This document shows positions 47,603 through 64,000 of a stretch of 64,000 nucleotides of DNA, in pieces (position 1 is the stretch's first letter; each line of letters opens with the position of its first letter). Below the pieces are notes generated by a model, which had not been told where the DNA came from, searched no databases, and was given only the letters and a program-made list of their open reading frames with translations. Both the position numbers and the translations under genes were made by a program. The stretch comes from Spirochaetia bacterium (GTDB taxonomy: Bacteria; Spirochaetota; Spirochaetia; Sphaerochaetales; Sphaerochaetaceae), in NCBI GenBank assembly GCA_022482625.1, contig JAKVOU010000001.1, forward strand, positions 1,784,784 through 1,848,783, in the 5' to 3' direction.

Positions 47603-49099
47603 CTATACGGGCTTCACTTTAGGAGGACGACCGCGTTTCTTCTTCGGTTGAAGCTTCTCTGTGGGATGAATGTCGAGTCTCTTCAGGACTTCCTCCTGTG
47701 ACGGATTGATCTTGATCAGACGCCACCCGATACCAGGATCATTGAACATCTTCGCCCTTGCCAGGATCCTCATGATCTTCTTATACGGCAAATCTTCGAG
47801 TAACTTGGCCTCGTCAAAGGCAGCTATCATCCTGAAGGTGAGCACGGAAGCGAGGAAGTCGCAGAACTCGCTTCCTATCACGCTGTAGTCGTCATGCACA
47901 CGGGTCTCATCGAATTCGAGTGCTGACTTGTAGAATCTCATGACAATCTCGATCTCCCATCTCTTGGAATAGGCTTTGTAGATCGTCTGGGGATCTGTGT
48001 CCAGATCGCACTCAAGGACCACCGTCCCGAATGTCGCTCTTGCCTTCTCAAGATCAGTGAGGCGGTAATTCTTCTTTTTCCGGCTTCGGCTCAGCCAGTC
48101 ACGTTCTTCCTTTGAAGCCCTGTAGGCATCCCGGAAGGAATAGAGCCATCGGTCCCCACCTTTCTCCTTCCTGCAGGTTATGCCTTCATACCCTTGAAGA
48201 AGCTCTGTAAACTCAAGCATATGGAGTTGCGATGCAATCTTCGCATTCCTCTTCAGAGGATTCAGGTAATGGAGGTCGGGATGCTGCTTGAAATGCTGCC
48301 TTGCTACGGACTGGGGGAATCCTTTGTCTGCAACTACGATTCCCTTTGTCAGTTGGTGCTCGGAGATGAATTCATCGTAGGCGGTGACATCAAGCATGTT
48401 GCCCGGAAAACACTTGGAGCATACCGGTTCCATCGCTTCAAGATCGAAAGCGAACAGGACAGAGATGTCCCTGGTTCCTTTCGTCCTGGCTTTCCTGGAA
48501 AAATCCGAGAGAGAATTTACCTTCGATTCATCCGATTTCAATGTCCCGTCAATCAGTACATGGTGATCCATCTCGACTTTCGAAGCCCTGGCCCTCATGA
48601 ACAGGGTGATCTTTGAACAGGTACGTCCAAGATTGTTCAGGAAGGTGGAGACCGTGTTCTTCGAGAGGGCTACATCAGGATACAGCTCGGACAGGAAACT
48701 CTCCTCATACGCATCTTTCAGCTCATAATCCTTTATACCGCTGAAGCAGACCCTGAGCACAGCGATGGACCAGATCCTGAGCGCATCCTCCCTGCCATAG
48801 GATTCTCCTAGCTCAATGAGCATGTCAGCAAAGAGTTTCTGCGCAAGGATGATGTTTGCCCAGTCCTTGAGGTCCACGGCCGCCCCAGACACGGGCGGCG
48901 GGGCATCTTCCCCGAGGGGTATGTACTTGCCGTCCACTATATGGCCGATGGTCGGACCGTTGACCGGAAGTCTTCGGCTTCCGACACTTCTGCATCCGAC
49001 CCTGGCCCTTACCGCGTAACGGTCGCGGTCCTTGCCGTACACGATGACGATTGAATTCTTGGGTCGCTCGACCGCTAGTACTTCCTTTGGGATCGGCAT
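47603..49099 (-). CDS. IS1634-family transposase
   Basis: A 498-residue DDE transposase of the IS4-related IS1634 group. The catalytic acids appear in LIDGTLKSD, GIVVADKGFPQS and the Y-(2)-R-(3)-E signature YSKRWEIEIVMRFYKSALEFDETRVHDD near residue 395. The C-terminus is basic (KPKKKRGRPPKVKPV), an AT-hook-like DNA-binding tail. The gene has a higher G+C content than its neighbours, which fits acquisition from another genome. It is full length with no visible break. Confidence 0.92.
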   Translation of the reverse strand: MPIPKEVLAVERPKNSIVIVYGKDRDRYAVRARVGCRSVGSRRLPVNGPTIGHIVDGKYIPLGEDAPPPVSGAAVDLKDWANIILAQKLFADMLIELGESYGREDALRIWSIAVLRVCFSGIKDYELKDAYEESFLSELYPDVALSKNTVSTFLNNLGRTCSKITLFMRARASKVEMDHHVLIDGTLKSDESKVNSLSDFSRKARTKGTRDISVLFAFDLEAMEPVCSKCFPGNMLDVTAYDEFISEHQLTKGIVVADKGFPQSVARQHFKQHPDLHYLNPLKRNAKIASQLHMLEFTELLQGYEGITCRKEKGGDRWLYSFRDAYRASKEERDWLSRSRKKKNYRLTDLEKARATFGTVVLECDLDTDPQTIYKAYSKRWEIEIVMRFYKSALEFDETRVHDDYSVIGSEFCDFLASVLTFRMIAAFDEAKLLEDLPYKKIMRILARAKMFNDPGIGWRLIKINPSQEEVLKRLDIHPTEKLQPKKKRGRPPKVKPV

Positions 49100-51075: not shown

Positions 51076-52740
51076 TTATTCCTGGTCCTCATGGACACCG
51101 GCAACTGCACGTCCGCTCGGTTCGTTCATGCTCTTGAATGCAGCATCCCATTCCAAGGCCACTGCAGTGGAACAAGCAACAGAAGCTTCATGCGGTACAC
51201 AGCTGGCAGCACCCTCACTCTTGAAATGCTTGGTAAACAGAATACGATAATACGCTTCTTCCTTGGTTGATGGCGTATTGATCGGGAATCTGTTTGCTAT
51301 GGTTTCGAACTGTCTGTCAGTAATCATCTCATCAGTCATAGCCTTGAGTGTATCAATCCATGAATAACCTACGCCATCAGAGAACTGCTCTTTCTGTCTC
51401 CATACGATTTCCTTGGGAAGCATATCCTCGAAAGCTTTTCGCAGGATCCACTTTTCCATATGGCCATCCCTGCACATCTTGAGCTCGGGATTGAGCCGCA
51501 TGGCTACGTCTATGAACTCCTTGTCAAGGAAAGGAACCCTCCCCTCGACACCCCAAGCCGCAAGCGCCTTGTTTGCTCTCAGGCAATCATAGAGATGCAG
51601 TTTACTGAGCTTTCTCACTGTCTCTTCGTGGAAATCCTTGGCACTGGGAGCCTTATGGAAGTACAGATAGCCCCCGAAAAGCTCATCACTGCCCTCACCT
51701 GAAAGGACCATCTTGATCCCCATGCTCTTGATCACACGGGCAAGCAGATACATCGGGGTCGCTGCCCTGATTGTCGTAATATCATAGGTCTCCAAGTGAT
51801 AGACGACATCCTCAACAGCATCAAGTGCTTCCTGGATCGTAAAATGTACTTCATGGTGAACAGTCCCAAGATAGTCAGCGACAACTTTGGCTGCCTTGAG
51901 ATCCGGAGATCCTTCCAACCCGATTGCAAAACTATGGAGCCTAGGCCACCAGGCTACCTCAGTATTGCCTGATTCAACCCTGGAAGAAGCATATTTTGCT
52001 ACAATTGCCGAAATGATGGAACTGTCAAGTCCTCCTGAAAGCAACACGCCATAAGGTACATCGCTCATCAGCTGACGTTCGACAGCAGATTCAAGAGCAA
52101 CACGGACATCCTTAGCGGTCCCGCCGTTGTCCTTGACAGCGTCATAGCTCATCCAATCCCTGTGATACCACGTAGTCGTTTTCTTGTCCGGGCTATAGAA
52201 ATATTGTCCAGGCTGGAATTCACACAGTGAAGGACAGATGCCTTCCAATGCCTTCAATTCACTTGCGACATAGTAATGTCCGTCGACATCCCATCCCTGA
52301 TACAGCGGAATGATACCGATGTGGTCACGGGCAATGAGATAGCAGTCCTTTTCCATATCATAGAGTGCAAAGGCAAATATACCATTCAAATCTTCAAGGA
52401 AATCCGGTCCCTTGTCCCTATAAAGAGCAAGGATAACCTCACAGTCACTATGAGTCAGGAATTCATAACGACCTTCGTACCTTTTCCTGATCTCCATATG
52501 GTTATAGATTTCTCCATTGGCGGCAAGGACAAGCTTGCCATCCTTGCTGTATAGTGGCTGCTTGCCCGAAAGCGGATCGACGATACTCAACCTTTCATGT
52601 GAGAGGATGGCATCCTTACCCTGATACACACCAGACCAATCAGGTCCCCGGTGCCTCAGTTTCTTGGACATTTCGAGAACTTGGGTGCGATATTGATCGC
52701 TGTCCTCAGTAATGTCAAACATTCCTACGAATCCACACAT
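51076..52740 (-). CDS. asnB: Asparagine synthase (glutamine-hydrolysing)
   Basis: A 554-residue enzyme making asparagine from aspartate, glutamine and ATP. It begins MCGFVGMFD, so Cys2 becomes the N-terminal nucleophile of the class II amidotransferase domain; RHRGPDWSG, ANGEIYNH and HSDCEVIL complete that domain. The synthetase domain has the PPi loop VLLSGGLDSSII near residue 235 and VLSGEGSDELFGGYLY near 345. The length is that of E. coli AsnB. A terminator-like hairpin lies between its apparent promoter and the start codon. Confidence 0.93.
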   Translation of the reverse strand: MCGFVGMFDITEDSDQYRTQVLEMSKKLRHRGPDWSGVYQGKDAILSHERLSIVDPLSGKQPLYSKDGKLVLAANGEIYNHMEIRKRYEGRYEFLTHSDCEVILALYRDKGPDFLEDLNGIFAFALYDMEKDCYLIARDHIGIIPLYQGWDVDGHYYVASELKALEGICPSLCEFQPGQYFYSPDKKTTTWYHRDWMSYDAVKDNGGTAKDVRVALESAVERQLMSDVPYGVLLSGGLDSSIISAIVAKYASSRVESGNTEVAWWPRLHSFAIGLEGSPDLKAAKVVADYLGTVHHEVHFTIQEALDAVEDVVYHLETYDITTIRAATPMYLLARVIKSMGIKMVLSGEGSDELFGGYLYFHKAPSAKDFHEETVRKLSKLHLYDCLRANKALAAWGVEGRVPFLDKEFIDVAMRLNPELKMCRDGHMEKWILRKAFEDMLPKEIVWRQKEQFSDGVGYSWIDTLKAMTDEMITDRQFETIANRFPINTPSTKEEAYYRILFTKHFKSEGAASCVPHEASVACSTAVALEWDAAFKSMNEPSGRAVAGVHEDQE

Positions 52741-52760: not shown

Positions 52761-52805
52761 AAAAAAAAGGCGCACTCCAGCTCCATGCGGGTGAAGAACG
52801 CCTTT
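52761..52805 (-). terminator. Hairpin with T-run in the asnB leader / after copA
   Basis: GGCG and CGCC arms, extended by AAA/TTT (52766-52772 and 52799-52805), enclose a 26-base partly self-paired loop. On the minus strand eight T follow the stem directly. It can end the copper operon and also lies downstream of the likely asnB promoter, acting as a leader attenuator. Confidence 0.7.
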
Positions 52806-52817
52806 GTTCTTTGCGTT

Positions 52818-52847
52818 ACGCTAGCGCATATGTCTACCATCTGTCAA
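52818..52847 (-). promoter_or_regulatory. Possible asnB promoter
   Basis: On the minus strand TTGACA (52842-52847), an 18-base spacer and TAGCGT (52818-52823). The -35 is perfect, the -10 weak. Transcription would begin just before the leader hairpin. Confidence 0.45.
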
Positions 52848-56229: not shown

Positions 56230-58320
56230 TTATACAGAATACAGCATTTCACCATACACCGGGAACGGCCAGAACTTACTGTCAACCATCAGCTCAAGTT
56301 CATCGGCACTGACCCGCACCTCACTCATCAGAGGAAGTACTGTATCGTGGAAATACACTGCGCATTCCTTTGAACCTTCAAAATCATGGGATGCAAGCAC
56401 AGCTGCGTCAAGTTCTTCAAGTCTGAGAGACATGCTGTCAATCAGAGAAGAAAGCTTGGTAACCAGTTCAGTCTGGGACTTCATCGTCAAGCTGGGAACT
56501 GCTGTCTTTGCTGCACTGATTTCAGAAGATACAGCAGAAAGATATCCGTTACAGGCCGGTATGACCTGTTTGCTTACCATATCAATCAAGGTCAAAGCCT
56601 CAATGTTGATTGTCTTTGCATACTGGTCAAAGAGAATCTCTACCCTGCTGGCAAGCTCACATCTGCTCAGCACCTTTTCCTGCTCAAACAACTTGACGTT
56701 CTTGTCAGAAAGATACACAGGGTAAGCATCAACGGCAGAAGTAAGATTCAGCAAACCACGTTTCTTTGCCTCGCCAATCCATTCAGGACTGTAGTTATTG
56801 CCATTGAAAACAATATGCTTGTGTGCATTATATGTATCCTTTACCAACTTCCGCAATGTCTGCGTAAAGTCATCGGCATCTTCAAGCACATCGGCAAACT
56901 CACCCAAGATCTGAGCAACCGCAGTATTGAGAATGGTATTCGGACCGGAAATTGAAGCAGCACTACCAAGCATCCTGAACTCAAACTTGTTGCCAGTAAA
57001 GGCAAACGGAGAAGTTCTGTTCCTGTCCGTCGTATCCTTCGGGAAATCAGGAAGTACATGGACGCCAAGGATCATATTCTGCTTTTCGACTCCATCAGCT
57101 ACACGGCCATTGCCGATAGCCTCAAGGATGTCAGTCAACTCGTCTCCAAGGAACATTGAAACGATGGCAGGAGGTGCCTCGTTTGCTCCCAGACGGTGAT
57201 CGTTGCCAGGTGAAGCAACGCTTGCTCTCAGCAAATCCTGATATTCATCTACAGCCTTGATCACAGCAACAAGGAAAAGCAGGAACTGTGCATTGTCTTT
57301 CGGTGATGCACCAGGCTCCAGCAGATTTATGCCGGTATCAGTCGAAATGGACCAGTTGTTATGCTTGCCGGAACCATTGACACCGGCGAAGGGCTTTTCT
57401 TGCAACAGGCAGGCCAAACCATGTTTTTCAGCAATCTTCTTCATCATTTCCATGGTCAGCTGGTTATGGTCACAGGCAACATTGGTCGTCGTAAAGACCG
57501 GAGCCAACTCATGCTGGGCAGGAGATACTTCATTGTGCTTGGTCTTTGCAAAGATACCAAGTTTCCAAAGTTCCTTGTCCAGATCCTGCATAAAAGCACT
57601 GACCCTCGGGCGAAGACTTCCGAAATAGTGATCAGCAAGTTCCTGGCCTTTTGGAGGACGGGCACCGAGCAGGGTCCTACCGGTATACTTGAGATCCTTA
57701 CGAAGTTCAAACAATTTCTGATCAATAAGGAAATATTCCTGTTCAGGACCGACGGTGGTAAATACCTGCTTCACATCATCATGACCAAACAGCTTGAGAA
57801 TCCTTTTCGCCTGATCACTGATAGCTTCCATGGAACGAAGCAACGGAGTCTTCTTGTCAAGCACCTCGCCGCTGTAAGAACAGAAAGCAGTCGGAATATA
57901 AAGTGTCTTTTCCTTGACGAACGCATAGCTGGTCGGGTCCCATGCGGTATAGCCACGGGCTTCAAACGTAGCCCTCAGACCACCGGAAGGGAAAGAGGAT
58001 GCATCCGGTTCACCTTTGATCAGCTCCTTGCCCGAAAAACTCAGCGTGATATTGCCGTTTTCCGTCGGATTGATAAATGAATCATGTTTCTCTGCGGTAA
58101 TACCGGTCATCGGCTGGAACCAATGTGTGAAATGAGTAGCCCCTTTTTCCAAGGCCCATTCCTTCATCGCATGTGCTACGACATTGGCAATATCAAGGTC
58201 AAGGTCCTTTCCGTCCCTTATGGTTTCCTTTAATTTCTTATAGACATCCTTCGGCAGACGTTCACGCATCACATCATCGCCAAAAACCATGGAACCAAAA
58301 AAATCTGTAATCTTTTCCAT
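56230..58320 (-). CDS. glnN: Glutamine synthetase type III
   Basis: A 696-residue GlnN-type enzyme, far larger than GlnA, that joins ammonia to glutamate with ATP. THFTHWFQPMTGITAEKHDSF and FPSGGLRATFEARGYTAWDPTS are signatures of type III, with GPEQEYFLID as a metal-site motif and HNEVSPAQHELAPVFTTTNVACDHNQL in the active site. The start is placed at ATG 58320 (MEKITDFF), behind AAGGAG, not at an earlier in-frame ATG. The gene is divergent from the glutamate synthase operon, forming a GS-GOGAT pair. Its leader contains a terminator hairpin. Confidence 0.93.
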   Translation of the reverse strand: MEKITDFFGSMVFGDDVMRERLPKDVYKKLKETIRDGKDLDLDIANVVAHAMKEWALEKGATHFTHWFQPMTGITAEKHDSFINPTENGNITLSFSGKELIKGEPDASSFPSGGLRATFEARGYTAWDPTSYAFVKEKTLYIPTAFCSYSGEVLDKKTPLLRSMEAISDQAKRILKLFGHDDVKQVFTTVGPEQEYFLIDQKLFELRKDLKYTGRTLLGARPPKGQELADHYFGSLRPRVSAFMQDLDKELWKLGIFAKTKHNEVSPAQHELAPVFTTTNVACDHNQLTMEMMKKIAEKHGLACLLQEKPFAGVNGSGKHNNWSISTDTGINLLEPGASPKDNAQFLLFLVAVIKAVDEYQDLLRASVASPGNDHRLGANEAPPAIVSMFLGDELTDILEAIGNGRVADGVEKQNMILGVHVLPDFPKDTTDRNRTSPFAFTGNKFEFRMLGSAASISGPNTILNTAVAQILGEFADVLEDADDFTQTLRKLVKDTYNAHKHIVFNGNNYSPEWIGEAKKRGLLNLTSAVDAYPVYLSDKNVKLFEQEKVLSRCELASRVEILFDQYAKTINIEALTLIDMVSKQVIPACNGYLSAVSSEISAAKTAVPSLTMKSQTELVTKLSSLIDSMSLRLEELDAAVLASHDFEGSKECAVYFHDTVLPLMSEVRVSADELELMVDSKFWPFPVYGEMLYSV

Positions 58321-58389: not shown

Positions 58390-58425
58390 AAAAAAAGCGC
58401 CGTAGTCCTGCCGAACTACAGCGCC
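58390..58425 (-). terminator. Leader terminator (attenuator) of glnN
   Basis: On the minus strand a hairpin with GCGC/GCGC and GTAGT/ACTAC stems is followed at once by seven T (58390-58396 on the plus strand). It lies about 15 bases after the -10 box and 70 bases before the glnN start, so it can stop transcription before the gene. Confidence 0.75.
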
Positions 58426-58440
58426 ATTGCTGATGGAATC

Positions 58441-58470
58441 TTCATACAACAAAATACAAATGCTTGTCAA
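58441..58470 (-). promoter_or_regulatory. glnN promoter, sigma70-like
   Basis: On the minus strand TTGACA (58465-58470), 18-base spacer, TATGAA (58441-58446). Confidence 0.6.
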
Positions 58471-58788
58471 CACATACTGCCTGAAATTTTCCAACAAATC
58501 AAAATATCTACCTTTCAGCCTCTGGGAAAATAGCAATCAAAGCCATTTTTACTAAAAACATCCCATTCACGCTTACTGCAAAGTCCTTGATTATGTATTT
58601 TTTTGCAATAGTTTGAGCAAAAAAGCTTATTTTTATACACTTTTTTGCATAGGAAATAAAACAATACATCAATTCACATAACCAATTTTGCCTTTTGCAT
58701 CAAATAATTTGATAAAAACGTGTCTAATAAGGCAAATAATCAAATATGTTCTATTCTCCTCAAAAAAATCTACTATATAGATAAGTTA

Positions 58789-58817
58789 TAGACAAGAAGT
58801 TACAATTTCTGTATTAT
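58789..58817 (+). promoter_or_regulatory. Glutamate synthase operon promoter, sigma70-like
   Basis: TAGACA (58789-58794), 17-base spacer, TATTAT (58812-58817). Transcription would start near 58824, about 150 bases before the first gene. Confidence 0.6.
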
Positions 58818-58840
58818 CCTCAACAAAAAGACAATGGTGT

Positions 58841-58892
58841 CTTGTCCGGGGAAGGAATCTCTCCTCAGCTTACGATTTCATGAGTAGACAAG
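58841..58892 (+). ncRNA. Candidate structured leader RNA (three-way junction)
   Basis: CTTGTC (58841-58846) pairs with GACAAG (58887-58892). Inside, GGGGA can pair with TCTCC and CTCA with TGAG, giving a three-stem junction directly before the leader terminator. No match to a known riboswitch consensus was recognised. Confidence 0.35.
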
Positions 58893-58894
58893 GA

Positions 58895-58937
58895 CGTCTG
58901 CAGCATGGAGAACTTTCCGTCTGCAGACGCTTTTTTT
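58895..58937 (+). terminator. Leader terminator (attenuator) of the glutamate synthase operon
   Basis: CGTCTGCAG (58895-58903) pairs with CTGCAGACG (58921-58929). An inner stem ATGGA/TCCGT encloses a 6-base loop, and seven T follow the stem (58931-58937). It lies 36 bases before the first start codon. Confidence 0.8.
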
Positions 58938-58973
58938 CTCTTTGGACACTGCACAAAAATAGGAGACTGACTT

Positions 58974-60086
58974 ATGTTCAATGCACCGAAAGAAGGGGAC
59001 GTCAGAATACCCTCAGGCTGCGCTATCAGCGGTATCTTCTCCAAGAAAGGCAAACGCTTTTCCGGAGAACAAGCCATAAAGTCGATCACCTTGATGCACG
59101 ACCGTTCCAACGGTCTCGGCGGAGGTTTCGCAGGTTATGGCATCTACCCTGAATATAAGGATTACTATGCCTTCCATCTTTTCTATGATGACACCATAGC
59201 AAAGAAAGAATGCGAGGAGTTCCTGGAAGATCATTTTGATATGATCAACCTTTCAAAGATACCTACCCGTAAGATTCCGCAGATTACAAACGAGCCGATG
59301 ATCTGGAGATATTTTCTTTCTCCGCTTCCTACAAAACTTGCCGAGAGCCAACTGCCTGAAAGCGAGTATGTTGCTCAATGTGTCATCAAGGTAAACACTA
59401 CGATCAAGGGAGCGTGCATCTTCTCCTCCGGGAAAAACATGGGCGTATTCAAAGCCCAGGGATTCCCTGAAGATGTTGGACGATTCTACCGCCTGGAAGA
59501 GTATGCAGGCTATAGCTGGACCGTACACGGACGCTATCCGACCAATACTCCTGGCTGGTGGGGCGGAGCTCATCCTTTTTCCCTGCTTGACTGCAGTGTC
59601 GTCCATAACGGAGAGATTTCCAGCTATGACGCAAACCGTCGTTTCATAGAAATGTTCGGTTATCGGTGCACATTGCTCACAGACACCGAAGTCATTACGT
59701 ATATGATCGATTACCTGCATCGGAAACAGGGACTCGGCTATGAGAAAGTAGCCCATATCCTTGCAGCTCCTTTCTGGAGCACCATTGACCGAATGAATGA
59801 GAAGGACAAAGCTGAATATACCTATCTTCGAGACAACTTCGCCAGCATGCTCATTACAGGACCATTCTCTATCATCGTTGGTTTTACTGGAGGACTCATG
59901 GCTCTGAATGACCGTCTGAAGCTAAGATCTCTGGTCGTCGGAACAAAAGACGACATGGTCTACATGGCTAGCGAAGAAGCCGCCATACGCGTGCTTTCTC
60001 CACAGCTCGATTCCATTACCTACCCAAAAGGGGGTGAACCCTTTATCGTCACCTTGGACAAGGAGGCATACCAGCAATGTCAATAA
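58974..60086 (+). CDS. Split glutamate synthase, glutamine amidotransferase subunit
   Basis: A 370-residue class II amidotransferase, the N-terminal domain of glutamate synthase as a separate protein (archaeal type). It releases ammonia from glutamine. The predicted nucleophile is C16 in IPSGCAISGIF. It must become N-terminal, so a 15-residue propeptide would have to be removed. GRYPTNTPGWWGGAHPFSLLDCSVVHNGEISSY is the glutamine pocket. AGGAG precedes the ATG. The gene overlaps the next by 10 bases. Confidence 0.88.
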   Translation: MFNAPKEGDVRIPSGCAISGIFSKKGKRFSGEQAIKSITLMHDRSNGLGGGFAGYGIYPEYKDYYAFHLFYDDTIAKKECEEFLEDHFDMINLSKIPTRKIPQITNEPMIWRYFLSPLPTKLAESQLPESEYVAQCVIKVNTTIKGACIFSSGKNMGVFKAQGFPEDVGRFYRLEEYAGYSWTVHGRYPTNTPGWWGGAHPFSLLDCSVVHNGEISSYDANRRFIEMFGYRCTLLTDTEVITYMIDYLHRKQGLGYEKVAHILAAPFWSTIDRMNEKDKAEYTYLRDNFASMLITGPFSIIVGFTGGLMALNDRLKLRSLVVGTKDDMVYMASEEAAIRVLSPQLDSITYPKGGEPFIVTLDKEAYQQCQ

Positions 60087-61582
60087 ACTTTCTCCAGCCG
60101 GAATATGAAGTAGTAAGGAACATGGACAGGTGCATTACCTGCCGTGTCTGTGAAAGACAATGTGCCAATGAAGTGCACCATTACAATGCTGACCTTGACC
60201 GGATGGTCAGCGATGACTCAAAATGCGTTGACTGTCAGCGATGTGTTACCCTTTGCCCCACAAACGCATTGAAAATTGTCAAGACAAACAATTGTTTCAA
60301 GGAAAATGCAAACTGGCATACAAGTGACATTACGGATATCTACCGCCAGGCAACCACCGGCGGCGTCCTGTTGGGGTCAATGGGAACTCCGAAGGAATAT
60401 CCTGTGTATTGGGACAAGCTCCTCATCAACGCCTCCCAAGTCACGAACCCTTCCATCGACCCCTTGAGGGAACCGATGGAAACAAGGACTTTCCTTGGGA
60501 AAAAAGATGCTACCATCCACTATGACAAAGACGGCAACATCATTACCAAGACAACCCCGCAGCTTGAACTGTCAACTCCTATCATGTTCAGCGCAATGAG
60601 CTATGGGTCCATCAGCTACAATGCTCACAAAAGCCTTGCCATGGCAGCTACCAAACTGGGCATCTACTACAACACAGGCGAAGGTGGCCTCCATGAAGAT
60701 TTCTACGTATATGGACCAAACACCATCGTACAGGTAGCCTCCGGTAGATTCGGCGTACATTCCGACTATCTGGAAGCAGGTGCTGCCATCGAAATCAAGA
60801 TGGGCCAGGGTGCAAAACCCGGCATAGGAGGACACCTTCCTGGAGCCAAGATTACCGAAGCAGTTTCAAAGACCCGTATGATTCCTCAGGGAACCGATGC
60901 AATAAGTCCGGCACCACATCATGATATCTATTCGATTGAAGATCTCAGGCAGCTGGTCTACATGCTGAAGGAAAGTACGAACTACAAGAAACCCGTCATC
61001 GTCAAGATTGCTGCCGTACATAACGTCGGAGCTATTGCAAGTGGTATTGCACGTTGCGGAGCCGATATCATTGCCATCGACGGATTCAGAGGCGGCACAG
61101 GAGCTGCTCCGGCAAGAATCAGGGACAATGTCGGTATCCCAATCGAACTGGCATTGGCTTCAGTCGACAGAAGGCTGAGGGAAGAAGGTATCAGGAATCA
61201 GGTAAGTTTGGTCGTAGGAGGATCGATACGTTCCTCTGCCGATGTCATAAAGGCTATCGCTTTGGGAGCCGATGCCTGCTATATCGCAACCAGTGCACTC
61301 ATTGCCCTCGGGTGTCATCTGTGCAGGACCTGCCATCTGGGAAAATGTAACTGGGGCATAGCTACCCAGGTACCGGAACTGGTAAAAAGACTCAATCCGG
61401 CAATAGGCAGTGAGCATCTGGTCAACCTTGTTACCGCATGGACACATGAGATCAAGGAAATGATGGGAGGCATGGGTATCAACTCCATAGAAGCCCTGAG
61501 AGGAAACCGCCTCATGCTCAGAGGTGTGGGACTCACAGAAAAAGAGCTTGAGATCCTTGGGGTCAAGCACGCAGGAGAGTAG
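60077..61582 (+). CDS. Split glutamate synthase, FMN-binding central subunit with ferredoxin domain
   Basis: A 501-residue protein. Residues 1-75 carry two four-cysteine clusters (CITCRVCERQC and CVDCQRCVTLC). The rest is the FMN barrel of glutamate synthase: SAMSYGSISYNAHKSLAMAA, NTGEGGLHED, SPAPHHDIYSIEDL, IDGFRGGTGAAP and the Fe-S cysteines of ALGCHLCRTCHLGKCNWGIATQ. It converts 2-oxoglutarate and ammonia to glutamate. The N-terminal ferredoxin fusion is usual for the archaeal-type enzyme. Confidence 0.92.
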   Translation: MSINFLQPEYEVVRNMDRCITCRVCERQCANEVHHYNADLDRMVSDDSKCVDCQRCVTLCPTNALKIVKTNNCFKENANWHTSDITDIYRQATTGGVLLGSMGTPKEYPVYWDKLLINASQVTNPSIDPLREPMETRTFLGKKDATIHYDKDGNIITKTTPQLELSTPIMFSAMSYGSISYNAHKSLAMAATKLGIYYNTGEGGLHEDFYVYGPNTIVQVASGRFGVHSDYLEAGAAIEIKMGQGAKPGIGGHLPGAKITEAVSKTRMIPQGTDAISPAPHHDIYSIEDLRQLVYMLKESTNYKKPVIVKIAAVHNVGAIASGIARCGADIIAIDGFRGGTGAAPARIRDNVGIPIELALASVDRRLREEGIRNQVSLVVGGSIRSSADVIKAIALGADACYIATSALIALGCHLCRTCHLGKCNWGIATQVPELVKRLNPAIGSEHLVNLVTAWTHEIKEMMGGMGINSIEALRGNRLMLRGVGLTEKELEILGVKHAGE

Positions 61583-61586
61583 AACT

Positions 61587-62015
61587 ATGAAAAGAGTATA
61601 TGTTGAAGAAGACTGGTGCCTTGCTTGTCATCTATGTGAGTATTGGTGTGCGTTCAGCAACAGCGGCAAAGACAACATGGTTGCAGCCTTGAAGAACAAG
61701 ACCATCAAACCGATGATCCAAGTTGAAGAAGGTGACAAGATCAATTTTGCAGTCAGCTGCAGGCACTGTGAAGATCCCATCTGCGTCAAATCCTGTATTT
61801 CCGGTGCACTGAGCATCGAAGACGGGGTCATCAAGATAGACAAGAGCAAATGCGTTGACTGCTATACCTGTATCATGGCCTGCCCTTATGGCGTGCTGAT
61901 GCCGAATGAAGACGAAGGCATCATGCAGAAATGCGAACTGTGTACACCACGGGGTACGGCACCTTACTGTGCCGCCCACTGCCCGAACCAGGCAATTATC
62001 TATGAGGAGCGATAA
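61587..62015 (+). CDS. 4Fe-4S ferredoxin-type electron-transfer subunit
   Basis: A 142-residue protein starting at ATG 61587 (MKRVYVEEDW) behind AGGAG. It holds many cysteines in ferredoxin patterns: CLACHLCEYWC, CRHCEDPICVKSC, CVDCYTCIMACPYG and CELC...CAAHC, as in HycB/NarH-like four-cluster subunits. It likely passes electrons from the next gene's NAD(P)H oxidoreductase to the FMN subunit. It starts five bases after the FMN-subunit gene. Confidence 0.88.
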   Translation: MKRVYVEEDWCLACHLCEYWCAFSNSGKDNMVAALKNKTIKPMIQVEEGDKINFAVSCRHCEDPICVKSCISGALSIEDGVIKIDKSKCVDCYTCIMACPYGVLMPNEDEGIMQKCELCTPRGTAPYCAAHCPNQAIIYEER

Positions 62016-62016
62016 C

Positions 62017-63252
62017 ATGAACAAGTATCTGATCATAGGAGCTTCGATTGCAGCCGCTTCGGCAATCGAAGCAATACGGAAAAATGACAAGGAAGGCAGC
62101 ATTACCGTCATAGGAAAAGAGCCCTATGCACCTTACTGCCGCCCGCTCATTTCCTATGCACTGCTGGGTAAGACGACCTTTGAAAAAATGCCCTACAGGG
62201 ATGCATCCTTTTATAAAAAAATGAAGGCAAAGCTCATACTCGGCAAGGAAGCTACCAGCATTGACAAAGCAAAGAAACAGGTAATCCTTGATGACGGTAC
62301 GAGACTTCCCTATGACAAGCTGTTGGTTTCCACAGGCTCCCGTCCGTTCGTACCTCCGATGGAAGGCTTGGACAAAGTTGAGAAAAAATTCAGTTTCATG
62401 ACAATTGACGATGCAAAGTCATTGGAAAAGGAACTTGATCCAGAAGCAAAGGTATTGGTTGTCGGAGCTGGATTGATCGGCCTGAAATGTTGCGAAGGCA
62501 TCCTTGCCAAGGTAAAGAGCATCGATGTCGTCGACCTTGCCCCGCGGATACTTCCTTCTATCCTCGATGACAAGGCAGCTGCACGTGTACAGGATTATCT
62601 GGAAGGGAAAGGCATCAGGTTCTTCCTGAAAGATTCGGTCGCTTCCTTCACAAAGAAAACAGCTACGCTGAAAAGCGGGACAAAGCTTACTTTCGACCTG
62701 CTCGTACTTGCCGTCGGGGTCAGGCCCAACACAGCTCTGGTGGCAGACATAGGCGGTACCGTGAACAGAGGTATCGTTACCGACGACTGCTGCAAGACCA
62801 GCATCGAAGATATCTATGCAGCAGGAGACTGCACTACTTCCCATGACATCACCAGTGACAGTGACAAGATACTTGCGCTCTTCCCAAATGCAAACATGCA
62901 GGGTGAGGTTGCAGGGAACCAGATGAGCGGCGGTACGCTACGCTATGACCATGCCATTGCTGCCAATGCCATCGGTTTCTTCGGTCTACATATCATTACA
63001 GCAGGAAGTTACATAGGTGACCAGCTCGACCTTTCTACGAAAGACGGGTACAAGGTGCTCTTTACCAAGGATGACCACCTTGTCGGCATGATACTCATCG
63101 GAGATACCGTACTTCGTGCAGGTATCTATACAAACCTCATCAGGAAACAGATTCCTCTCTCTTCCCTTGACTTCGAACAGATTGCCCAGCAGCCAAGGCT
63201 CATGGCTTTTGCAAAGAAAGACAGGGTGAGCATGCTAGGAGAAAAAAGATGA
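62017..63252 (+). CDS. FAD-dependent NAD(P)H oxidoreductase
   Basis: A 411-residue pyridine nucleotide-disulfide oxidoreductase-like flavoprotein. KYLIIGASIAAASAIEAIRKND binds FAD at the N-terminus, VLVVGAGLIGLKCCEGI is the NAD(P) motif near residue 150, and IEDIYAAGDCTT the second FAD motif. The start at 62017 lies one base after the ferredoxin stop codon, behind GAGGAG. It should supply electrons to the split glutamate synthase; no GltD-type small subunit is present. Confidence 0.88.
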   Translation: MNKYLIIGASIAAASAIEAIRKNDKEGSITVIGKEPYAPYCRPLISYALLGKTTFEKMPYRDASFYKKMKAKLILGKEATSIDKAKKQVILDDGTRLPYDKLLVSTGSRPFVPPMEGLDKVEKKFSFMTIDDAKSLEKELDPEAKVLVVGAGLIGLKCCEGILAKVKSIDVVDLAPRILPSILDDKAAARVQDYLEGKGIRFFLKDSVASFTKKTATLKSGTKLTFDLLVLAVGVRPNTALVADIGGTVNRGIVTDDCCKTSIEDIYAAGDCTTSHDITSDSDKILALFPNANMQGEVAGNQMSGGTLRYDHAIAANAIGFFGLHIITAGSYIGDQLDLSTKDGYKVLFTKDDHLVGMILIGDTVLRAGIYTNLIRKQIPLSSLDFEQIAQQPRLMAFAKKDRVSMLGEKR

Positions 63253-63983
63253 AAAAGCAAAACATCACCGTAGGGCATATGAACTTCAAGGAGCTCAATG
63301 ACCTTGTACGGGAAAGTACGAATTCCTCCATTGAGCTCAATGATGTACAAGGCCAGCGTTTTATCGGAGCTGGCATGAAAGACAAGACACTTTCCATCTA
63401 TGGAGTACCGGGCAATGCTTTGGGTGCCTGCATGAACAGCGGTAGCCAGATCATCGTCAACAATGATTGCCAGGATGCCATCGGTGACACGATGAATGAC
63501 GGCATGATCACCGTGTGCGGCAACTGCGGAGATACTGCAGGCTATGCCATGAGAGGAGGTGCCATCCTTATCAAGGAAAGCGCTGGTTACCGTATCGGCA
63601 TCCACATGAAAGCTTACAAGGAAAAGCAGCCTGTGATCATCATCGGTGACAAAGCCGGTTCTTTCCTTGGAGAATATCTTGCCGGCGGAACCATCATCGT
63701 TCTGGGAATGAGACAACACGGGAAATGTCCGGTAGGGAACTTCTGCGGAACTGGTATGCATGGAGGACAAATCTTCCTCCGTACCGATGAATTACCCAAG
63801 GATCTTCCCCCACAGATCAAGGCAGAAATAGCCACGAAAGAAGACTTGGAATCCATCGATGCTTACCTTGAATTGTTCTGTACGACCTTCTCATTTGACA
63901 AACAGCAACTGTTGGATGCAAAATACTATAAGCTTACACCGAATTCTACTTCACCGTACAAGCAGTTGTATACCGCAATCTGA
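63249..63983 (+). CDS. Split glutamate synthase, GXGXG-domain subunit
   Basis: A 244-residue protein overlapping the oxidoreductase gene by 4 bases (ATGA). It consists mainly of the right-handed beta-helix GXGXG domain that closes the glutamate synthase alpha chain, with repeats such as SQIIVNNDCQDAIGDTMNDG, ITVCGNCGDTAGYAMRGGAI and GMRQHGKCPVGNFCGTGMHGGQIFL. It completes the five-gene set: amidotransferase, FMN barrel, ferredoxin, NAD(P)H oxidoreductase, GXGXG. AAAGGGGAG at 63985-63995 suggests that one more gene begins just beyond the window. Confidence 0.9.
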   Translation: MKKQNITVGHMNFKELNDLVRESTNSSIELNDVQGQRFIGAGMKDKTLSIYGVPGNALGACMNSGSQIIVNNDCQDAIGDTMNDGMITVCGNCGDTAGYAMRGGAILIKESAGYRIGIHMKAYKEKQPVIIIGDKAGSFLGEYLAGGTIIVLGMRQHGKCPVGNFCGTGMHGGQIFLRTDELPKDLPPQIKAEIATKEDLESIDAYLELFCTTFSFDKQQLLDAKYYKLTPNSTSPYKQLYTAI

Positions 63984-64000
63984 CCAAAGGGGAGCAGCAA

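Follow-up and report, generated by a model that had tools for sequence, protein, structure and literature searches.

A predicted single-hexaloop variant of ANTAR antitermination in leaders of nitrogen-assimilation genes of spirochaetes and Clostridia

Introduction

Antitermination of nitrogen genes by ANTAR proteins is known from NasR/nasF of Klebsiella, NasT/NasS and AmiR/AmiC, and a comparable system is predicted for the spirochaete locus described here. ANTAR proteins recognise a six-base loop with A at position 1 and G at position 4 (PMC3369931, PMC8934654, PMC7496416), and the ANTAR-target RNAs of Firmicutes, Proteobacteria and Actinobacteria share this loop rule, as well as a nitrogen theme, with the present leaders (PMC3369931, PMC8164766). 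The described targets are dual stem-loops (PMC3369931, PMC8164766). Both stem-loops are required in Enterococcus faecalis, where linkers of 3 or 14 nt abolish function (PMC3369931), and NasR binds a single hairpin more weakly (12 uM vs 1 uM; PMC7496416). According to Walshe et al., the minimal binding unit is one hexaloop while antitermination requires two in succession; the structure of EutV with RNA likewise suggests one hexaloop as the minimal unit, and its authors raise the role of single hexaloops (PMC8934654). Covariance searches for these RNAs used a dual stem-loop model (PMC3369931, PMC8164766), so that single-hexaloop sites would tend to escape them.

NitR of Clostridium acetobutylicum and Clo1313_2030 of C. 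thermocellum are ANTAR-type proteins encoded beside glutamine synthetase or GOGAT genes and proposed to be antiterminators (PMC4676874, citing Fierro-Monti 1992), and the ANTAR-type regulator here has the same kind of neighbours. We found no published RNA target for NitR or Clo1313_2030 in the literature compared; some firmicute members of the set described below may stand in Tables S1 and S2 of Ramesh 2012.

The glnN leader

The window, i.e. the whole stretch of DNA that was analysed (64,000 nucleotides), carries glnN on the minus strand behind a short leader. Here and below, all promoter positions are consensus matches and transcription starts are predicted.

56230..58320 (-), glnN, a large glutamine synthetase (GSIII type, 696 aa; matches to the catalytic domain fall short of curated cut-offs; same-length relatives with up to 73% identity)
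58441..58470 (-), glnN promoter, sigma70-type TTGACA-N18-TATGAA (consensus match; relatives compared)
58419..58432 (-), ANTAR-type hexaloop hairpin P2, CAGC-AAUGGC-GCUG (A1, G4 and closing C-G; 10/10 relatives)
58390..58425 (-), intrinsic terminator of the glnN leader (RNA folding; E 1.4e-6 in the window with R1, a covariance model of hexaloop plus terminator)

The promoter boxes (TTGACA at 58470-58465, TATGAA at 58446-58441, minus strand) predict, by consensus position, a transcription start near 58434-58433. The terminator stem occupies 58425-58396, with 13 pairs, seven of them G-C, around a loop of four, and is followed by a T run to 58390; the glnN ATG lies at 58320, 70 nt beyond the terminator. 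An earlier note on this DNA, made from the sequence alone, had reported this promoter, a strong GC stem with a T run and a start codon 70 nt further on, all of which are present, and its placing of the stem about 15 nt past the -10 box is confirmed. The terminator is the strongest terminator-like site within the 16 kb scanned.

Directly after the -10 box the glnN RNA reads CAUCAGCAAUGGCGCUGUAG, in which CAGC and GCUG pair round the six-base loop AAUGGC. The closing C-G, A1 and G4 of this hairpin are those of the NasR SELEX consensus (PMC7496416). As in the eut leaders controlled by EutV in E. faecalis, the A1/G4 hexaloop overlaps the 5' arm of a terminator: this arm includes the final loop bases and the 3' arm of P2, and the two folds are therefore mutually exclusive. 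The leader thus has a defining feature of ANTAR-target RNAs, namely a hexaloop hairpin that overlaps and excludes an intrinsic terminator. Folding energies are -3.8 kcal/mol for P2 alone and -22.1 kcal/mol for the terminator (shuffles -10.2 +/- 2.2; z -5.3), and the weakness of the hexaloop hairpin on its own suggests that termination is the default.

The earlier note saw no A1/G4 hexaloop and discounted ANTAR control. On this point it was wrong, as hairpins at 58432-58419, 58828-58843 (+), 58884-58901 (+) and 52811-52794 (-) all fit, and lie in the leaders of glnN, the glutamate synthase operon (glt) and asnB; because they overlap the terminator 5' arm, they vanish when the terminator fold alone is drawn. 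We posit that an ANTAR RNA-binding protein very probably operates the glnN leader as an antitermination switch, and that the leader shares this protein with the glt-glnA-ANTAR-pyrG operon, asnB and nitrogen transporters.

Leaders of the glutamate synthase operon and asnB

The layout that the earlier note had also placed at the glutamate synthase operon (58883-58939 +) and at asnB (52812-52761 -) is real, with the following components.

58789..58817 (+), promoter of the glutamate synthase operon, TAGACA-N17-TATTAT (consensus match; similarly placed TAGACA in G001-G003)
58828..58843 (+), upstream hexaloop P1 of the glt leader, AAGAC-AAUGGU-GUCUU (counterparts in the genus mates G001, G002 and G003)
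58884..58901 (+), hexaloop P2 of the glt leader, GUAGAC-AAGGAC-GUCUGC (40 nt downstream of P1)
58890..58937 (+), intrinsic terminator of the glt leader, overlapping P2 (R1 E 0.001)
58974..64000 (+), glutamate synthase operon, running past the window end (GltB glutaminase domain, ferredoxin-type GOGAT, Fe-S, NAD(P)H oxidoreductase, GltB C domain)
52818..52847 (-), asnB promoter, TTGACA-N18-TAGCGT (consensus match)
52794..52811 (-), hexaloop P2 of asnB, AAGAAC-AAAGGC-GUUCUU (also upstream of asnB in G005, G022 and G025)
52761..52805 (-), intrinsic terminator of the asnB leader, overlapping P2 (R1 E 6.8e-8)
51076..52740 (-), asnB, asparagine synthase B (NF006949 above cut-off)

The glutamate synthase operon is divergent from glnN and continues beyond the window with glnA, an ANTAR regulator and pyrG. 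R1 finds exactly three leaders in the window, those of asnB, glnN and glt, the next match being at 0.39.

Three smaller observations concern this stretch. Between the divergent promoters lie about 300 bp of AT-rich DNA (58480-58780) with no recognised feature, more than one would expect between two simple divergent promoters. Both the glt (58903-58910 +) and the asnB (52788-52781 -) terminator loop contain GCATGGAG, which may be chance, and an IS1634-type transposase gene is located near asnB (47603-49099).

The ANTAR regulator and its clostridial relatives

The genome encodes one ANTAR gene, directly after glnA and before pyrG.

~65303-65884 in window coordinates, just beyond the window end, ANTAR regulator gene in the same operon as glt-glnA

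Its ANTAR domain scores above the cut-off for PF03861 and its receiver below the Pfam cut-off, and the protein is alignable end to end with EutV, Rv1626 and AmiR. It has the receiver, coiled coil and ANTAR build of EutV, and the closest structure to its AlphaFold model (pLDDT 93.6) is EutV bound to RNA (6ww6, TM 0.77). The equivalent of EutV Met172, which plugs the loop, is Met in all 74 family members; the position of Tyr164, which stacks on G4 in EutV, is by contrast His in 74/74. A second difference lies in the receiver, where the phospho-Asp position (Asp54) is Asn in 65/74 members and the acidic pocket is gone. Judged by these residues the regulator is a pseudo-receiver protein. AmiR also has a pseudo-receiver. 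In the absence of a phosphorylation site, ordinary phosphorylation is unlikely as the input signal, and, unlike the case of EutV, no histidine kinase is found among the neighbouring ORFs of the operon. NasR, NasT and AmiR receive their signal from a nitrate-binding domain or from partner proteins (NasS, AmiC). Here the constant neighbour is glnA, with the ANTAR gene directly 3' of it in 71/77 loci of Clostridia and Spirochaetota.

Using the regulator as query recovered 80 loci, mostly of Clostridia (Sedimentibacter, Niameybacter, Papillibacter, Clostridium, Ruminococcus and others). These contain 53 strict sites, defined as C-AANGRY-G plus a terminator, as against none in two sets of dinucleotide-shuffled sequence from these loci; the gene that follows is glnN, glt, glnA or amt at 48 of the 53. 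Divergent leaders of glnN and glt recur as a pair, e.g. in a Ruminococcaceae genome (L138) and in L151. The single hexaloop at the 5' end is a candidate RNA target of NitR-type, glnA-linked ANTAR proteins, judging from these sites. In a tree built by a quick method most spirochaete regulators are separate from clostridial ones and two spirochaete rows fall within Clostridia, a topology that leaves the direction of any transfer unsettled.

A divergent ANTAR subgroup on a long branch (G014, G019, G031; genera g12 and g17) has the operon glnA-ANTAR-glnN and a receiver motif that is eroded further.

One hexaloop or two

By the strict published dual-hexaloop definition most of the leaders lack one defining feature, the second hexaloop, and they differ in this from the leaders of NasR/nasF, NasT/NasS and AmiR/AmiC, which carry two hairpins, and from those of EutV/eut, as a single hexaloop is the rule here. 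The strongest competitor of the single-hexaloop reading is accordingly an ordinary dual ANTAR target, in which a longer transcript from a promoter further upstream would carry a P1 that was missed or is off-consensus. It draws on the dual nature of the described targets and on the glt leaders of the source genus, where P1 lies about 25-40 nt upstream of P2; described linkers measure 5-12 nt (E. faecalis eut) and 2-25 nt (Actinobacteria). These glt leaders, from the four genomes of the genus, are the only ones in which P1 is clearly present and also the only positive controls for its detection, as no eut-type leader that might serve as a dual control was found at eutP loci of the clostridial genomes tried.

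The position of the promoter weighs against a second hexaloop. All ten glnN leaders of ANTAR-positive relatives have TTGACA at the same distance, with a -10-like hexamer 17-18 nt on, and the end of the -10 box is 7-10 nt from P2 in every glnN leader of the family. Across Clostridia and spirochaetes the median distance is 11 nt, and 33 of the 43 sites with a good promoter fall within 6-13 nt. If transcription starts about 7 nt after the -10 box, as we assume, the first base of P2 falls at about +2 to +7 of the predicted RNA, and most leaders have no room for P1. None of the ten glnN leaders has a second A1/G4 hairpin of usable strength near P2, the nearest candidate (G024) being a weak hairpin upstream of the promoter; none of four asnB leaders has a second hexaloop, and any second hexaloop within 25 nt occurs at just 4 of the 53 strict sites in Clostridia and spirochaetes. 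We consider the dual arrangement unlikely.

A single-hexaloop variant of an ANTAR antitermination regulon for nitrogen assimilation is thus the best reading of these sequences. Where P1 is present, A1, A2 and G4 of its loop are kept but position 6 varies. This suggests a role in the terminator for the conserved C6 of P2, and in recognition by the protein for A1, A2 and G4. The U tract follows 19-42 nt beyond P2 in the spirochaete leaders, so that polymerase covers only a short distance during which the protein can bind. One weak hairpin could possibly suffice through a higher affinity conferred by the His substitution, polymerase pausing or a high protein level; that a single hexaloop would be sufficient for antitermination is a prediction from the leaders. 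Dozens of natural, conserved single-hexaloop leaders, some beside dual leaders in the same cell, make the need for two hexaloops directly testable.

Conservation, covariation and co-occurrence

The earlier note had made its proposal depend on conservation of the hairpin in relatives, and the hairpin is conserved. The order TTGACA promoter, 7-10 nt, CAGC-AA[AU]G[GA]C-GCUG and overlapping terminator is found at glnN in 10/10 ANTAR-positive relatives, and is absent from every ANTAR-negative glnN locus that was read. ANTAR-positive G014 and G031 have further glnN copies without the element (L010 and L005, those read), and their second glnN sits in the operon glnA-ANTAR-glnN, whose leader carries it. 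The glt leader element occurs in 11 of the 12 ANTAR-positive genomes that have glt. Four genomes have a copy of the element at asnB itself, and in G001, G002, G003, G007 and G026 asnB lies close behind glnN (contig coordinates) and would share its leader. A1 and G4 are present in 25/25 spirochaete leaders and 46/46 clostridial sites, partly owing to the search rule, and the real tests of the loop are the shuffle control and covariation.

All P2 stem positions pair in the 22 leaders that could be aligned (100%, vs 25-48% in slid controls). The entry rule of the alignment, a stem of >=3 pairs around a loop resembling AANGRY, builds in part of this percentage but neither the fourth pair nor the kinds of change. 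Changes on both sides, i.e. compensatory ones, affect 3/4 P2 pairs, and the terminator stem is 97.7% paired. These data bear on the possibility of a plain constitutive, unregulated terminator of a short leader or small RNA, with the hexaloop as a by-product of A/T-flanked terminators (AAAGGC...GCCUUU). The loop bases do lie partly within the terminator 5' arm, which explains some of their conservation. The P2 5' arm (CAGC, GGAC, GAAC, AAAC), however, is outside the terminator and always complements the 3' arm, so its covariation is not explicable by the terminator, and shuffles yield no strict sites as against the 53 found. Look-alike terminators of ANTAR-negative genomes also lack a comparable hexaloop hairpin; those of G017 and G043 have a bare three-pair stem and most others not even that. 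A plain terminator is therefore very improbable. The R1 matches in ANTAR-negative G017, G021, G056, G012, G058, G043 and G041 were rejected as plain terminators.

The leader element co-occurs with the ANTAR gene. Among 61 relatives, R1 at E <= 0.0052 matches 13 of 14 ANTAR-positive and none of 47 ANTAR-negative genomes. In the family, matches at E <= 0.02 are found in 70/87 ANTAR-positive vs 4/52 ANTAR-negative genomes (Fisher 5e-18); 17 of the 87 ANTAR-positive genomes have no match at this threshold, and three of the four ANTAR-negative exceptions are incomplete or fragmented assemblies. Neither set of counts is corrected for phylogeny, and some of these genomes supplied the R1 training leaders. 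As the earlier note remarked, no known glutamine riboswitch is evident. No Rfam covariance model matched the 64-kb window at gathering score, and at loose thresholds the leader region gave just sub-threshold matches attributable to chance. A metabolite riboswitch or other ligand-sensing leader unrelated to ANTAR (e.g. a glutamine riboswitch) would be consistent with mutually exclusive structures ahead of glutamine genes, but is likewise very improbable given the missing Rfam match, the <20 nt of RNA ahead of the terminator, which are too short for an aptamer, and an element whose presence tracks the ANTAR gene.

What the earlier note had suggested for glnN, glt and asnB, namely regulated read-through and a nitrogen attenuation system common to all three, is strongly supported at the level of comparative genomics: the leaders are conserved, the two hairpins of each exclude one another and show compensatory changes, and the regulon goes with the presence of an ANTAR gene.

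Proposed mechanism

The observations behind the proposed ANTAR switch are the exclusive folds, their conservation and covariation, the co-occurrence with the ANTAR gene and the conserved distance from promoter to hairpin; protein binding, the direction of the response and the input signal are predictions from them. Transcription would begin just ahead of the small A1/G4 hexaloop hairpin. Left alone, the nascent RNA would refold into the far more stable terminator and stop after about 45 nt. An ANTAR protein in its binding state would hold the hexaloop, making the terminator 5' arm unavailable and allowing read-through into glnN. The same protein would act at the divergent glt-glnA-ANTAR-pyrG operon, and so control its own gene, and likewise at asnB and the transporters for ammonium and other nitrogen compounds.

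Judging from the genes controlled, read-through would occur in nitrogen limitation. In nitrogen-poor cells a free ANTAR dimer would hold the hexaloop on its exit from polymerase, and glnN, glt-glnA-ANTAR-pyrG, asnB and the transporters would be read. In nitrogen-rich cells the protein would be kept inactive, presumably by a partner rather than a kinase as its receiver is probably not phosphorylatable in the usual way. Glutamine synthetase is the first candidate for this partner because glnA is the constant neighbour, by analogy with AmiC-AmiR and NasS-NasT.

More tentatively, and with appreciable doubt, we hypothesise a distinct single-hexaloop class at the first transcript nucleotides in Clostridia and Spirochaetota, read by a glnA-linked pseudo-receiver ANTAR protein that would sense nitrogen via glutamine synthetase itself, or via a glutamine- or 2-oxoglutarate-dependent partner, and not via a kinase. 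What results is a predicted regulon of nitrogen assimilation in spirochaetes. The analysis also supplies a candidate RNA target for clostridial ANTAR proteins linked to glnA, and draws attention to glutamine synthetase as a possible partner in signalling.

Further predicted members of the regulon

The regulon of the source genome was defined by covariance search. Overall, R1 matches lie upstream of glnN, glt, glnA, asnB, amtB-PII, pyrG and ABC transporters for nitrogen compounds. Those outside the training set stand before glnA (G014, G019, G031), before pyrG (G031, and G046 of another family of the class) and upstream of a family-3 solute-binding ABC transporter, as well as, in the source genome, before amtB-PII and a Bmp-type ABC transporter. 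Taken singly, some of these matches score weakly (E 0.04-0.1 per genome); the downstream gene and a closed hexaloop add to their credibility.

In the source genome, TACATC-AAAGGC-GATGTG is located under a terminator before a gene for a 562-aa ammonium transporter-PII fusion, amtB-PII (G000:C1:1154473-1154521, L118). A leader of the same type precedes a Bmp/PnrA-like ABC transporter operon in two genera (G000:C1:2447785-2447829, L116, in the source genome; G005:C1:84904-84952, L115), which suggests uptake of nucleosides or purines as a nitrogen source.
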